DNA of 29,741 nucleotides from an uncultured Collinsella sp. (lineage in GTDB: Bacteria > Actinomycetota > Coriobacteriia > Coriobacteriales > Coriobacteriaceae). The translations under genes were made by a program, and so were the position numbers. Below, piece by piece: positions 7,603-29,741 of the stretch; position 1 is the first letter of the stretch, and each line of letters begins with the position of its first letter. The notes under the pieces are model-generated. The model saw only the letters and a program-made list of their open reading frames with translations, was not told the origin of the DNA and ran no database searches. The stretch spans positions 1-29,741 of the forward strand of contig CAJLAN010000001.1 in the NCBI GenBank assembly GCA_905204635.1, in the 5' to 3' direction.

Positions 7603-7655
7603 CAAACAACCCCTTTGTTTGCGGAGCGGGCGCACAATACGCTCGTCATCCTCTA

Positions 7656-7669
7656 GGTGAACGTTCACC
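7656..7669 (-). promoter_or_regulatory. LacI-type operator 1 of the uxa operon
   Basis: The perfect 14-bp palindrome GGTGAACGTTCACC starts immediately downstream of the predicted -10 box and covers the expected transcription start. A second copy lies 38 bp away, centre to centre. The adjacent LacI-family gene is the obvious candidate binder (inference). Confidence 0.85.
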
Positions 7670-7699
7670 ATCTTAGTGCAAAATGCGTTACGAGGTGAA
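7670..7699 (-). promoter_or_regulatory. Predicted uxaC promoter
   Basis: On the minus strand TTCACC (7694-7699) and TAAGAT (7670-7675) are separated by 18 bp. The -35 lies within operator 2 and the -10 abuts operator 1, so a bound repressor would block polymerase. The same -10 sequence and spacer occur at the ebgA promoter. Prediction from pattern only. Confidence 0.55.
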
Positions 7700-7708
7700 C
7701 GTTCACCT
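7693..7708 (-). promoter_or_regulatory. LacI-type operator 2 of the uxa operon
   Basis: The perfect 16-bp palindrome AGGTGAACGTTCACCT contains the predicted -35 of uxaC. It shares the 14-bp core GGTGAACGTTCACC with operator 1 exactly. Confidence 0.85.
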
Positions 7709-7780
7709 AACCATCATGGGGCGAACGGTAGGTTTTGACCGCTTAACGGTTGCCGAGCCATGGACCCTGCGTTGGATCGG

Positions 7781-18429: not shown

Positions 18430-18450
18430 TCATCGTAGTGCTTCTTTGTG

Positions 18451-18460
18451 CAACCGGTTG
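18451..18460 (-). promoter_or_regulatory. LacI-type operator 1 of ebgA
   Basis: The perfect palindrome CAACCGGTTG occurs within TGCAACCGGTTGTC, just downstream of the predicted -10. It is one of three identical cores in the ebgA-lacI divergent region. Confidence 0.85.
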
Positions 18461-18465
18461 TCCTT

Positions 18466-18495
18466 ATCTTACGGGCGGTACAAAAATCTGTGCAA
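18466..18495 (-). promoter_or_regulatory. Predicted ebgA promoter
   Basis: On the minus strand TTGCAC (18490-18495) and TAAGAT (18466-18471) are separated by 18 bp. The -35 overlaps operator 2 and operator 1 follows the -10, a layout suited to repression. Confidence 0.55.
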
Positions 18496-18502
18496 CCGGT
18501 TG
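18493..18502 (-). promoter_or_regulatory. LacI-type operator 2 of ebgA
   Basis: A second exact CAACCGGTTG, again within TGCAACCGGTTGTC, is centred 42 bp from operator 1 and overlaps the predicted -35. Confidence 0.85.
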
Positions 18503-18537
18503 TCCGCCGAACGGTCGATTTTGTCGGATTAACGGTG

Positions 18538-18547
18538 CAACCGGTTG
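18538..18547 (-). promoter_or_regulatory. LacI-type operator 3 of ebgA
   Basis: A third exact CAACCGGTTG, within TGCAACCGGTTGTA, is centred 45 bp from operator 2 and upstream of the promoter. Three sites at near-integral helical spacing suggest cooperative or looping repression (inference). Confidence 0.85.
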
Positions 18548-18570
18548 TACAACCATGCTACTTATGTCAC

Positions 18571-19811: not shown

Positions 19812-19944
19812 CTGGGCCGGGCTTTCCGCTAGGCTGCTTTAGCGGAAAGCCCGGCCCATTCCGAACGCCGATTCTGGGATGTACTTTCCGCCAGAAGCTC
19901 AACCGGAAAGTGCGACCCGTTATTTGGCTGGATTCTGGGTCGCA
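19812..19944. repeat. Cluster of dyads with about 61-bp period
   Basis: CTGGG begins at 19812, 19874 and 19935, steps of 62 and 61 bp, each followed by a TTTCCG-containing stretch. The first unit folds as an 18-bp hairpin. The second has ACTTTCCG (19883-19890) pairing with CGGAAAGT (19904-19911). TGCGACCC (19911-19918) pairs with GGGTCGCA (19937-19944). This suggests degenerate palindromic repeats placed between two convergent genes. Confidence 0.45.
19814..19857 (+). terminator. Long hairpin after the ebg-side lacI
   Basis: A perfect 18-bp stem (19814-19831 with 19840-19857, beginning GGGCCGGGCTTTCC) with an 8-nt loop lies 6 nt after the stop codon. It lacks a U-tract, so termination may be inefficient or rho-assisted. 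It is also the first unit of the dyad cluster. Confidence 0.55.
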
Positions 19945-21837: not shown

Positions 21838-21858
21838 ACCAGTGATCCTCCTTTATGG

Positions 21859-21900
21859 ATCTGTGCCGCCCCGTGTCGTTCCGGGCGGCGTCGTACAGAT
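21859..21900 (-). promoter_or_regulatory. Hairpin in the aspS leader
   Basis: ATCTGT (21859-21864) pairs with ACAGAT (21895-21900), and inside it GCCGCCC (21865-21871) pairs with GGGCGGC (21883-21889). It lies directly 5' of the aspS ribosome site. I see no T-box hallmark sequence, so it is only a structured leader of unknown role. Confidence 0.4.
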
Positions 21901-21942
21901 TTGCCCAGCCTGCGTAAACCGCGCAGCCGGACATGGCGTTCT

Positions 21943-25231: not shown

Positions 25232-25359
25232 GCCGTCCGCATGGGGTAACTTCCCAGCGCATTCCGCAGGACGCAAAAAGGCTCGCCGCACGAAGTGCGC
25301 AGCGAGCCTTTTTGCATGTCCGAGGACGCGCTGGGAAGAATTTTCCCCATGCGGACGGC
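25232..25359. repeat. Structured covarying repeat element, copy 1
   Basis: A 128-bp near-complete hairpin between convergent tetR and glpF. From the outside: a 15-bp outer helix (25232-25246 with 25345-25359), an internal loop, a 10-bp helix (25251-25260 with 25328-25337), TCC:GGA, internal loop GCA/GA, GGAC:GTCC, a 2-nt AT bulge on the right, a 14-bp helix (25273-25286 with 25302-25315), a CA bulge, then CGCAC-GAA-GTGCG at the tip. A5/T5 tracts in the 14-bp helix would allow it to work as a bidirectional intrinsic terminator for glpF and tetR. Copy 2 at 28044-28170 has the same core, bulges and tip but different helix sequences. Confidence 0.75.
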
Positions 25360-25380: not shown

Positions 25381-26112
25381 CTAGAACATGCCCAAGAAAC
25401 CATGCACAAACAGCGCAGCCAGAGCGGCACCGACAAACGGCGCGATGCCAGGAACAAGCAGGCCGTACTTCCAGTTGTTGTCAGCCTTGTTCTTGATCGG
25501 CAGCACCTGATAGGCCATGCGAGGACCAAGGTCACGAGCCTGGTTCATGGCGAAGCCGGTGATGCCGCCCATGCCCATGCCAACAGCCCAAACGATCAGA
25601 CCGACGCAGATAGCGAGCATCAAAACGTTCTCGCCGGCGCGGCTAGCGGCAGCAAGGATGGCGCTGATGAACACAAAGGTGCAGATAGCCTCGCAGAAGA
25701 AGTTGCGAGCATAGTTCGTGCCCTCGGTGGTGGGGTTGGTCGAGAAGATGTTGCGCTGGGCAATGGGGTCGACGACGCCCTCGGACGCCTTGAACTCATC
25801 GGCATACATAAGCCAAGCGATTACGGCACCCGCAAAGCCGCCGAGCATATCGGCAATCATGAAGGGAATGCAGCTGCTCCACGGCACCAAGCCTACGATG
25901 CACTGGGCAAGCACCATGGCGGGGTTCATGCACACGGCGCCGCCAAAGATAAACAGAGCAACCGAGATGCCAAAAGACCAGGTGGTGATGGCAAACATGT
26001 GGCCGGAGCCCTGATACTTGGTGCCCTTAAGCACGGTATCGCAGTGCACGCCCACGCCAAAGATGATCATGAGGGCCGTTGCGCCGAATTCGCAGAGGAG
26101 TTTGGTAAGCAT
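25381..26112 (-). CDS. Aquaglyceroporin, GlpF/LarD-like lactate channel
   Basis: A 243-residue, six-helix MIP-family channel. The first half-helix motif is NPA (63-65), within CMNPAMVLAQ. The second reads NQA at 190-192 instead of NPA, followed by R193 of the selectivity filter in NQARDLGPR, the GlpF-type context. It lies 49 nt downstream of larA on the same strand. In Lactobacillus plantarum the lar operon contains LarD, a GlpF paralogue that passes lactic acid, so lactate is the likely solute here. Glycerol remains possible. The ATG has AAGG 4-5 nt upstream. It is followed after about 20 nt by the structured repeat. Confidence 0.88.
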   Translation of the reverse strand: MLTKLLCEFGATALMIIFGVGVHCDTVLKGTKYQGSGHMFAITTWSFGISVALFIFGGAVCMNPAMVLAQCIVGLVPWSSCIPFMIADMLGGFAGAVIAWLMYADEFKASEGVVDPIAQRNIFSTNPTTEGTNYARNFFCEAICTFVFISAILAAASRAGENVLMLAICVGLIVWAVGMGMGGITGFAMNQARDLGPRMAYQVLPIKNKADNNWKYGLLVPGIAPFVGAALAALFVHGFLGMF

Positions 26113-28043: not shown

Positions 28044-28170
28044 GGGCCCGCCATTAGTCTACTTTTAGGCACACTCCGCAGGACGCAAGAAGCCCTCGCC
28101 GCACGAAGTGCGCAGCGAGGGCTTCTTGCATGTCCGAGGACGTGCCTAAAAGTAAACTGATGGCGGACCC
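28044..28170. repeat. Structured covarying repeat element, copy 2
   Basis: A 127-bp hairpin just past the ppc stop. Outer arms 28044-28072 and 28142-28170 pair over 29 positions with two C-A mismatches and one G-T wobble. Inside are TCC:GGA, internal loop GCA/GA, GGAC:GTCC, a right-side AT bulge, a 15-bp helix (28085-28099 with 28115-28129), a CA bulge and the tip CGCAC-GAA-GTGCG. Loops, bulges and tip equal those of copy 1, while the long helices have other sequences that still pair. Confidence 0.75.
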
Positions 28171-28191: not shown

Positions 28192-29741
28192 TTACCCCGT
28201 GTTCTGCAATCCTGCCGAGACGCCGGTCACAGTCGAAAGAATCAGGCTCATGTACTCGGCCTTCTTCTCCTCGGCCATCTCGTCCTGGTTCATACGCACC
28301 TCGCGAAGGGCGCGGACCTGGGCGATGGACAGGGCGTCGACGTAGGGGTTACGCACGCGAACGGCGCAGCCGAGCACGCGACGACGCTGCAGCGGCCATT
28401 CATCACCGACGATGGCAAGGACCCACTTACGGGTGAGCTGCATCTCGGTAAAGACCTTCTTGGACAGATCATCGCGGTCGCCCAGATGCAGATACATCTT
28501 GGCGATGCGCTGATCGGTCTTAGCAATCGACATCTCGATGTTGTCGATAAAGGTGCGGAAGAACGGCCACTCCTGGTAGGCAGCCTTGAGCTGGTCAAGA
28601 TCGCCAAGCTGCTCGCAGGCGGTGCCCAGACCGTACCAAGCGGCCAGGTTAATGCGCGCCTGGCTCCAGCTGAAGATCCACGGGATGGTACGCAGGTCAT
28701 CGAGCGACTTGGCGCCCAGACCGCGCTTGGCGGGACGCGAGCCGATCGGCAGCAGACCGACCTCGGTCAGCGGCGTCACGGTCGAGAACCACGGTGTAAA
28801 GTCCTCGGTGTTCAGCAGGTCCAGATAGCGTTCGTGGCTTGCAGTGTTGAGCTTCTCGGCCATATCCCAGAACTTCTGCGTGGTCTCGGTGTTGGTCTTC
28901 TCGACACTCGGGGCCGACTGCAAAAGCGTTGCGGCGGCAACGGACTCAACATGGCGCTGAGCCAGCGTGCGGTTGCCGTAACGGGCAAAGATGACTTCGC
29001 CCTGCTCGGTAAGCTTAAAGAAGCAGTTGACCGAACCCTTGGGCTGCGCCAGCACGGCCTTGTTGGCCGGGCCGCCGCCACGGCCCACGGCACCGCCGCG
29101 ACCGTGCATGAGCACCAGGTCGATATCGTTCTTCTCTGCCCACTTGGCGATGCGCTCCTGCGCGGAGTGCAGCGCGAGCATGGCCGTGGTAGGACCGGCA
29201 TCCTTGGAAGAGTCGGAATAGCCCAGCATGACCTCCATGCGGCGGTTGGTCTGGGCAAGGCGCTTTTGCACCACGGGCAGCGTAAGCATCTGATCGAGCA
29301 CGTCGACGCAGCCCTCGAGGTCCTCGAGCTGCTCGAACAACGGGATCACGTCGAGCTCGGGGACATCCTCCTCGTGTGCAAAGGACAGGTGCGCCAGCTC
29401 AAAGACGTCGGCCACATGCTGAGCGCTCTTGGTAAACGAGATGATGTAGCGGTGCGCCATCTTCTTGCCGTAGCGCTTTTGGATGGAGCCGATAGCGCGG
29501 AAGGTATCGATGACCTCGCGCGTCATGGGCTGCAGGTCGCCATGGATACCGTTCTCGTGGATATCCTTAAGGGCGCGGGCATGCACCACGGAGTGCTGAC
29601 GGAACTCCATCTCGACCATGTGGAAGCCGAAGGTCTCGGCCTGCCAGATGAGGTCCTGCAGCGGGCCGTAGGCGGAACGCTTGGCGTTGGCTTCGGCGAG
29701 GGAGCGCTGCACGGTCTTCAGATCGGCGATGTAGTCCTCGC
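28192..29741 (-). CDS. ppc: Phosphoenolpyruvate carboxylase, C-terminal part (cut by window end)
   Basis: The last 516 residues of PEP carboxylase, which fixes bicarbonate onto PEP to make oxaloacetate. The reading frame runs open to the window edge (EDYIADLKTV before the first listed residues), so the N-terminal part lies outside. Visible hallmarks are the catalytic LGYSDSSKDAGP (about 29194-29232), the glycine-rich HGRGGAVGRGGGP loop (about 29068-29109), and the invariant C-terminal QNTG directly before the stop. Roughly 510 of an expected 880-950 residues are present. In fermenters the enzyme feeds succinate formation and anaplerosis. Structured repeat copy 2 begins about 20 nt past the stop. 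Confidence 0.96.
   Translation of the reverse strand, partial: EDYIADLKTVQRSLAEANAKRSAYGPLQDLIWQAETFGFHMVEMEFRQHSVVHARALKDIHENGIHGDLQPMTREVIDTFRAIGSIQKRYGKKMAHRYIISFTKSAQHVADVFELAHLSFAHEEDVPELDVIPLFEQLEDLEGCVDVLDQMLTLPVVQKRLAQTNRRMEVMLGYSDSSKDAGPTTAMLALHSAQERIAKWAEKNDIDLVLMHGRGGAVGRGGGPANKAVLAQPKGSVNCFFKLTEQGEVIFARYGNRTLAQRHVESVAAATLLQSAPSVEKTNTETTQKFWDMAEKLNTASHERYLDLLNTEDFTPWFSTVTPLTEVGLLPIGSRPAKRGLGAKSLDDLRTIPWIFSWSQARINLAAWYGLGTACEQLGDLDQLKAAYQEWPFFRTFIDNIEMSIAKTDQRIAKMYLHLGDRDDLSKKVFTEMQLTRKWVLAIVGDEWPLQRRRVLGCAVRVRNPYVDALSIAQVRALREVRMNQDEMAEEKKAEYMSLILSTVTGVSAGLQNTG

Follow-up and report, generated by a model that had tools for sequence, protein, structure and literature searches.

The window, by which we mean the whole analysed stretch of 29,741 nucleotides from an uncultured Collinsella sp., carries larC-type, TetR, larD, larA and ppc genes. 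The lactic acid channel gene larD (25381..26112, minus strand; MIP family by Pfam MIP, with an orthologue at locus L011 that matches NCBIfam LarD) and the PEP carboxylase gene ppc (28192..29712, minus strand; Pfam PEPcase, E 7.6e-153; its frame runs past the window edge) are each followed at the 3' end by a copy of a long structured element whose sense strand is also the minus strand. Copy 1 occupies 25232..25359 and copy 2 occupies 28044..28170, and the distance from stop codon to element core is 52 nt for larD and 49 nt for ppc. Model R1 matched copy 1 at 25244-25351 on the minus strand (96.8 bits) and model R2 matched it at 25239-25352 on the same strand (34.6 bits); for copy 2 the minus-strand scores were 107.7 bits (R1) and 37 bits (R2). 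Three other features of the window were seen in the same survey. An Rfam aspS RNA (RF02930, 77.6 bits) lies at 21849-21932 on the minus strand, operator-like palindromic sites lie at 18446-18552 and 7654-7709 (with CAACCGGTTG-type arms at three places and GGTGAACGTTCACC twice), and a perfect 19-bp inverted repeat with an 8-nt loop, which neither R1 nor R2 matched, lies at 19813-19858.

Both copies fold from end to end. The 5' half of the core in sense, UCCUCG, lies at 25321..25326 in copy 1 and at 28135..28140 in copy 2, and the 3' half, CUGCGGA, at 25263..25269 and 28075..28081, all on the minus strand and all placed by sequence and by alignment A1. Between the halves, the fold places the inner hairpin of copy 1 at 25273..25315 (helix 25273-25286 / 25302-25315, tip 25287-25299, CA bulge 25300-25301) and that of copy 2 at 28085..28129 (helix 28085-28099 / 28115-28129, tip 28100-28112, CA bulge 28113-28114), again on the minus strand. 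The outer arm of copy 1 comprises 25232..25262, its 3' side in sense (fold and inverted repeats I1 and I3), and 25327..25359, its 5' side (fold and orthologues). Folding energies were -103.0 and -102.4 kcal/mol for copies 1 and 2 on the minus strand and -97.3 and -92.6 kcal/mol on the plus strand. For both copies and either strand the z-scores fell between -13.9 and -16.4, and 0 of 200 shuffled sequences were equally stable. A sequence-only reading of this DNA had claimed one fold for the two copies, with identical loops (GCA/GA, AT and CA) and an identical tip (CGCACGAAGTGCG), and a 14/15-bp inner helix that differs between them with compensation; folding and sequence bore out each of these points. 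Its claim that the outer arms still pair holds near-perfectly across the family and less well for copy 1, in which TAA at 25247-25249 stands opposite AATTTT at 25339-25344. Most orthologues are fully paired at this point, so that copy 1 is locally degraded. In the nearest comparison genome (G001, which has 43% of sampled words in common with the window), the larD copy, L011, has an outer arm near-identical to that of the window and a different inner helix.

Comparison of further copies revealed a smaller common part than the two window copies had suggested. The invariant core that the sequence-only reading proposed does exist, but the tip and inner helix vary in other copies, and what is kept is UCCUCG-[any hairpin]-CUGCGGA in sense (TCCGCAG / CGAGGA on the window strand). 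These two strands form a near-invariant asymmetric internal loop (5' UCC-UC-G / 3' AGG-CGU-C) with a mismatch or bulge beside UCC/GGA. Two alignments were built, A1 with 91 C. aerofaciens-type sequences and A2 with 61 minimal elements from several genera (61 of 63 passed; L226, which is coding-like, and L266 were excluded). In A1, whose rows were gathered with the core pattern, UCCUCG is invariant in 91/91 rows, CUGCGG is likewise invariant and the final A of CUGCGGA is present in 88/91. Because exact-core patterns were used to find A1 and most A2 copies, core invariance in both alignments is partly by construction. Independent support comes from subfamily 2, which has other pairs in place of GGAC/GUCC, and from the Krumholzibacteriia copies found by covariance model, both of which keep UCCUCG/CUGCGGA. 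All 61 rows of A2 have a G-U pair outside UCC/GGA with a bulged base (A in nearly all), a feature largely fixed by the search pattern, and in other phyla different mismatches occupy this position.

Outside the core the elements are free in sequence. The inner hairpin varies from ~9 to >60 nt as well as in sequence, and the outer arms have a median length of 34 bp in Coriobacteriales (up to 56 bp; 115 representatives) and 47 bp in other phyla (26 representatives). Arm sequences are unrelated between loci, yet they are almost perfectly Watson-Crick paired. At a single locus the outer arms are often common to several species, while the inner hairpin type can differ. A foot motif, TGCG, after the outer arm was too weak to claim (26/115 versus 13/115 random positions in Coriobacteriales, and 2/26 versus 2/26 in other phyla). 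The core pattern gave 1-9 copies in 23 of 43 genus genomes, and the reversed two-part core pattern gave none in the 43. The 121 distinct copies fell into 11 groups by flanking DNA, two of which each merge two loci (larD with ppc, and ilvE with the ftsEX side).

To quantify the pairing, both alignments were compared with shuffled and with slid controls. In A1 99.0% of cells were paired, compared to 42.6-51.6% in slid controls, and in A2 98.6%, compared to 31.0-50.0%. The covariation score was 0.555 for A1 and 0.359 for A2, the latter against 0.105 when shuffled, and slid controls of either alignment reached at most 0.157. Percent paired, cell counts and scores were not equalled in any of 500 shuffles, so that compensatory change exceeds both kinds of control. 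Of 39 pairs in A1, 26 are changed on both sides, including 16 of 16 outer-arm pairs; the number of pairs with both-sided change lay within the shuffle range (99/500 for A1, 59/500 for A2), as did the number of pair types in A1 (490/500). These results strongly support selection acting on a folded single strand, as the sequence-only reading had argued. G-U pairs are scarce in the arms (9/2124 in one count; 79/5132 outer-arm pairs and 8/655 in another). Comparison of orthologues with one differing arm position gave 76 sequence pairs in which both sides had changed and 69 in which one had, these sequence pairs being non-independent. We infer that template-switch correction of quasi-palindromes helps to keep the arms perfect. 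If such correction takes place, it must be selection that maintains the core mismatches.

To determine the sense strand, we located the elements relative to open reading frames. Read as the reverse complement, the core begins 36-63 nt past a stop codon, that of the longest frame, in 10 of 11 flank groups. The same holds for the ilvE portion of the last, mixed group; its ftsEX-side portion, which no long sense ORF precedes, was seen by eye to be on the upstream side of a divergent ftsEX-like operon. This dependence on the stop codon indicates that the RNA is the reverse complement of the strand used in the sequence-only reading, which had recognised a fold that forms on either strand; the transcribed strand of the window copies is the minus. 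By core plus arms, 210 distinct elements, many of them mutually orthologous, were collected from Coriobacteriales DNA (334 sources), with 115 distinct right arms that had enough flank. Arms of -30 kcal/mol or lower were present in 208/210. This threshold was passed by 25/3000 shuffled and 240/3000 swapped arms (orthologues included among the swaps) in the Coriobacteriales controls and by 61/3000 shuffled and 24/3000 swapped arms in the other-phyla set, while -15 kcal/mol was too lax, being passed by 1672/3000 shuffled and 2196/3000 swapped arms. For 179 of the 208 strict elements a sense ORF of >=90 aa ends <=110 nt upstream, compared to 72/208 on the opposite strand. The element lies 20-70 nt past a stop in 176/208 in sense versus 39/208 in antisense, with a median of 50. 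The remaining 29/208 have no upstream ORF of 90 aa, and 20 of these come from two loci (the ftsEX side and the L207 locus). In the Krumholzibacteriia/Patescibacteria set, 22/27 lay 20-70 nt after stops in sense versus 9/27 in antisense. In a test independent of the arms, 64 of 67 core-pattern hits had arms of -30 kcal/mol or lower, including the coding-like L226, and the other three (L223, L227 and L239) look coding. At L364, two convergent genes each have their own oriented copy. This orientation and the narrow range of distances to stop codons support a role as RNA.

The upstream frames were taken from a first scan, which also supplied the representatives (87 or 84) of the terminator analysis below, and whose shortest-match rule misses elements with TGCGGA in the inner hairpin (e.g. 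at the C. aerofaciens-type groEL). They formed 45 clusters, at least four of which (18, 22, 30 and 37) look spurious. We searched 29 of the 45 against NCBIfam or Pfam with <=400 C-terminal residues, a limit that leaves several scores below the curated cut-off. The genes identified were PFOR, LarD, GrcA3, Ppc, IlvE, Pta, ThrB, PfkA and Fe-ADH/AdhE-like; GroEL, PurL, OppF, Fba, heavy-metal P-type ATPase, rubrerythrin, GlpK and Asd; and FTHFS, Hsp20, PheT, TypA, S10, DHH/DHHA2, NlpA lipoprotein and DJ-1. No family was found for the frame upstream of L249 in this search. The GroEL cluster includes loci from two families of the order (L183, L190 and L267 in f1; L225, L254 and L259 in f5), and its arms differ except that those of L190 and L267 are the same. 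Judging by the gene names, the upstream genes are probably highly expressed, with abundant mRNAs.

The covariance-model search among relatives in the Coriobacteriia, which the sequence-only reading had suggested, uncovered a large family. R1 found matches in 33/42 genus genomes at E 0.01 (its per-genome counts are doubled by the palindrome) and in 27/197 genomes of the order at E 0.001. In the complete genome G003, R1 gave 15 distinct copies and one weak one; R2 adds copies there (e.g. at 2088778 and 1475471), so 15 is a lower bound. R2 found the element in 58/197 genomes and 14/89 genera of the order, with up to 21 matches per genome. A minimal pattern hit 34/396 genomes of the class, some of the hits being coding. 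A stricter pattern run on named genomes gave 42 stretches, with ~1 chance hit expected by arithmetic; the carriers were Collinsella, Enorma, Ca. Limicola, Slackia and others in the Coriobacteriaceae and, beyond this family, Candidatus Peribacteria/Peregrinibacteria and Krumholzibacteriia. Stricter-pattern hits in Anaerolineales and Pumilibacter were without arms. R2 gave 2-10 matches per genome in five stricter-pattern genomes and, at E 1e-4, matched 23/80 genomes of the Krumholzibacteriia phylum and 4/379 of the Patescibacteria phylum, in searches whose filters lose weak matches. The R2 loci L349, L355 and L360 of the other phyla are without the regular-expression core, and the core hits L375 +, L384 +, L386 first and L390 + look coding and were not counted as members. 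Krumholzibacteriia copies stand in sense, mostly 25-46 nt past stops. Of 6 Patescibacteria cores, 5 lack a sense ORF upstream, and we therefore do not extend the gene-end rule to this phylum; at two of these five, L348 and L363, a 490-codon frame on the opposite strand ends 49-52 nt off. Three Patescibacteria loci (L347, L353 and L359) share one inner hairpin (GGCCGGCCACCAAGGGAGCC) and seem to be one conserved locus, with no upstream sense ORF. Viral carriage was rejected, since the 8 hits that one pattern produced in viral_contigs all lacked arms and were judged coding.

The elements matched no family at or above gathering score in Rfam 15, whose library we take, from the accession, to include the model RF01700; below threshold the matches were mainly to generic hairpin families, e.g. 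miRNA models. Membership of an Rfam family was accordingly rejected. The RF01700 RNA, Collinsella-1, resembles the element in its origin, since it is listed for Actinobacteria and the human gut (PMC2864571), and differs in that the elements were unmatched by it both at the gathering threshold and with E allowed up to 10. Among the titles listed in our literature search, which left most subscription journals outside its coverage, none dealt with the element. The hairpin family, with its many copies that keep both core loops and pairing, is thus previously uncatalogued. Integron attC sites are hairpins in which certain unpaired bases are conserved and the arms vary. By this general description the element is similar to them, but it is tied to stop codons and no cassette arrays were noticed around it.

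Simple hairpins followed by U tracts, or else Rho, are the usual explanation for the 3' ends of bacterial mRNAs. Like intrinsic (Rho-independent) terminators, the elements are stem-loops in sense shortly past a stop codon; unlike them, they have no U-rich tract at the foot (on average 2.9 T among the 12 nt that follow the outer arm, 87 representatives) and hold their near-invariant asymmetric core deep in a long rod. We scanned 84 representatives for canonical terminators with strict settings, with the zero point set 35 nt beyond the core, roughly where the arm ends. The bin of 50-99 nt then held 8 in sense (at 54-93 nt; two of them orthologous) and 0 in antisense, with ~0.6 expected by arithmetic from a background of 0.135 per kb per strand. 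Looser settings gave a smaller excess in this bin, 17 in sense versus 6, six of the 17 being one orthologous locus. This over-representation beyond the element suggests that in some loci it is a transcribed 3' UTR element, seemingly not a terminator. The reading in which the element is itself a terminator without a U tail, the rod alone or the rod with a core-reading factor dislodging RNA polymerase, is the main rival, possible though on the doubtful side. It is encouraged by the 57/87 representatives for which a lax scan found no canonical terminator <=250 nt downstream, by the 14/87 in which that scan scored a terminator-like hairpin within the element itself, and by window copy 1, whose inner hairpin (AAAAAGGCTCGC..GCGAGCCTTTTTGC) is also terminator-like. 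Moreover, the element stands where some non-carrier species have an ordinary hairpin and U run (by eye in 3/20 ppc 3' regions, L146, L150 and L156, in a survey where the wrong frame was picked in 5/20). Besides the bare foot and the terminators downstream, it has to contend with many inner hairpins that have no T run (e.g. GGAGCCCC types) and with the invariant asymmetric loop that the long perfect rod encloses, a feature terminators do not need. Cleavage by an RNase III-like endonuclease, placed by the asymmetric loop and making the mature mRNA 3' end, would suit the position of the elements, and RNase III-class substrates are typically long duplexes with asymmetric internal loops. We nevertheless consider it unlikely, since to our knowledge no RNase III sites are known to be marked by one invariant sequence that different phyla have in common.

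The sequence-only reading had suggested a mobile hairpin handled by a Y1-type transposase, and REP/BIME repeats with their RAYT (Y1) proteins do resemble the family, being repeated hairpins near gene 3' ends, with a few to ~20 matches per genome; REPs also stabilise the upstream mRNA. Within Coriobacteriaceae the transposase family PF01797 correlates with carriage. It is present in 10/10 strong carriers of this family searched and absent in 10/11 non-carriers from Coriobacteriales and the Krumholzibacteriota phylum (2/13 non-carriers overall, G027 and G507, have it). One inner-hairpin type can occur at several loci and differing types at one locus, and at grcA the element has been swapped: compared with ten other grcA loci (L004, L034, L053, L066, L071, L098, L108, L116, L129 and L140), in L234, L235, L237 and L238 the stop is followed by a new minimal element and then by an older type-1 element that has lost its 5' arm, so that elements can be replaced naturally. 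Against this, only 1 of 8 carriers from two other phyla gave any Y1 match, and that one is a broken piece, a frame of 78 aa interrupted by a stop, leaving an intact match missing in 8/8; a weak carrier of the same genus (G015) has one R2 copy and no Y1. R2 detected no element at 20 fetched Coriobacteriaceae Y1 loci (one from the non-carrier G027) and one, L394 (IS200-type), at the 4 best-hit Y1 loci; a laxer regular expression gave candidates at 5/20 (L400, L401, L406, L410 and L412), none accepted by R2. Whereas a REP keeps a conserved repeat that includes its stem and flanks its transposase, here the arms are unrelated between loci, with 26/39 pairs changed on both sides, and locus-specific arms at many orthologous positions in one gene-fixed orientation are unlike transposition. 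Spread between gene ends by Y1/RAYT mobilisation was therefore rejected as the main reading, 23/24 Y1 loci having no element beside them, and we hold it to be very improbable. Several divergent Y1 transposase-like proteins, mostly 250-360 aa and with an apparent C-terminal helix-turn-helix part, were seen in Collinsella-group genomes at L396-L414. A cruciform or inverted repeat bound as DNA by a chromosomal protein is scarcely credible: the near absence of G-U pairs is as in perfect DNA palindromes, but template-switch correction could also give it, orientation and distance follow the sense strand and the stop codon, and asymmetric loops are ill-suited to a dyad-binding protein.

The elements are a real, conserved and oriented RNA family at gene 3' ends. 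Covariation, position relative to stop codons, the arms on nearly all hits unselected for them, the missing U tail and the excess of canonical terminators further downstream favour a cis-acting 3'-UTR RNA rod, bound by a protein that would recognise the asymmetric core, so that mRNA 3' ends are protected or processed; for this function we judge the case evenly poised. The representatives with no terminator downstream or a terminator-like hairpin inside count against it, as do the smaller excess under loose settings, the elements without an upstream ORF, the Patescibacteria cores without a sense ORF and the swapped arms that pass the threshold. In such a 3'-UTR rod, RNA polymerase would pass through the element, and the rod would fold behind the last ribosome. 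A putative dedicated RNA-binding protein or nuclease may then recognise the core, after which the rod would block 3' exonucleases or fix a processed 3' end. The outcome would be a higher yield of abundant mRNAs, those of central metabolism, chaperone and translation genes, while template switching during replication may keep copying one arm onto the other, leaving few G-U pairs. More broadly, and with slightly more doubt than belief, we propose a new class of bacterial mRNA 3'-end signal, in which a near-invariant asymmetric loop (UCCUCG / CUGCGGA) is set in locus-specific, self-correcting perfect rods and read by this putative factor, and whose presence in Coriobacteriales, the Krumholzibacteriia phylum and a few Patescibacteria would stem from deep descent or transfer. 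A sequence-specific structured 3'-end signal that is kept at housekeeping genes of several families, and that recurs in distant phyla, implies a recognition factor, and with it a distinct way in which common bacteria of the human gut complete or shield their mRNAs. The motif, with its copies, can serve directly as bait.

Some elements stand apart from protein genes. At L207 (G003:C1:214150-214256, minus strand) the element lies between oppF and a tRNA-Leu gene, facing the oppF element, and neither it nor its orthologues (L037, L075, L101, L123 and L126) follow a protein gene in sense. Each of the six also has, ~75 nt beyond the element, a hairpin whose tail is CTTATATA-like, and this locus is a candidate small-RNA gene. 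The ftsEX-side element (L031, L039, L047, L055, L083, L086, L093, L113, L115, L117, L125, L131, L137 and L164) is on the upstream side of an ftsE/ftsX-like operon that is divergent to it, as judged by eye in L117. Neither a long protein gene in sense nor an Rfam RNA was found in L117, L031 and L105, and the ftsEX side is possibly another small-RNA gene. The ppc 3' end of G028 (L142) carries a long nested hairpin of another kind, whose internal loops differ from those of the element and which may belong to a second family of 3'-end rods.
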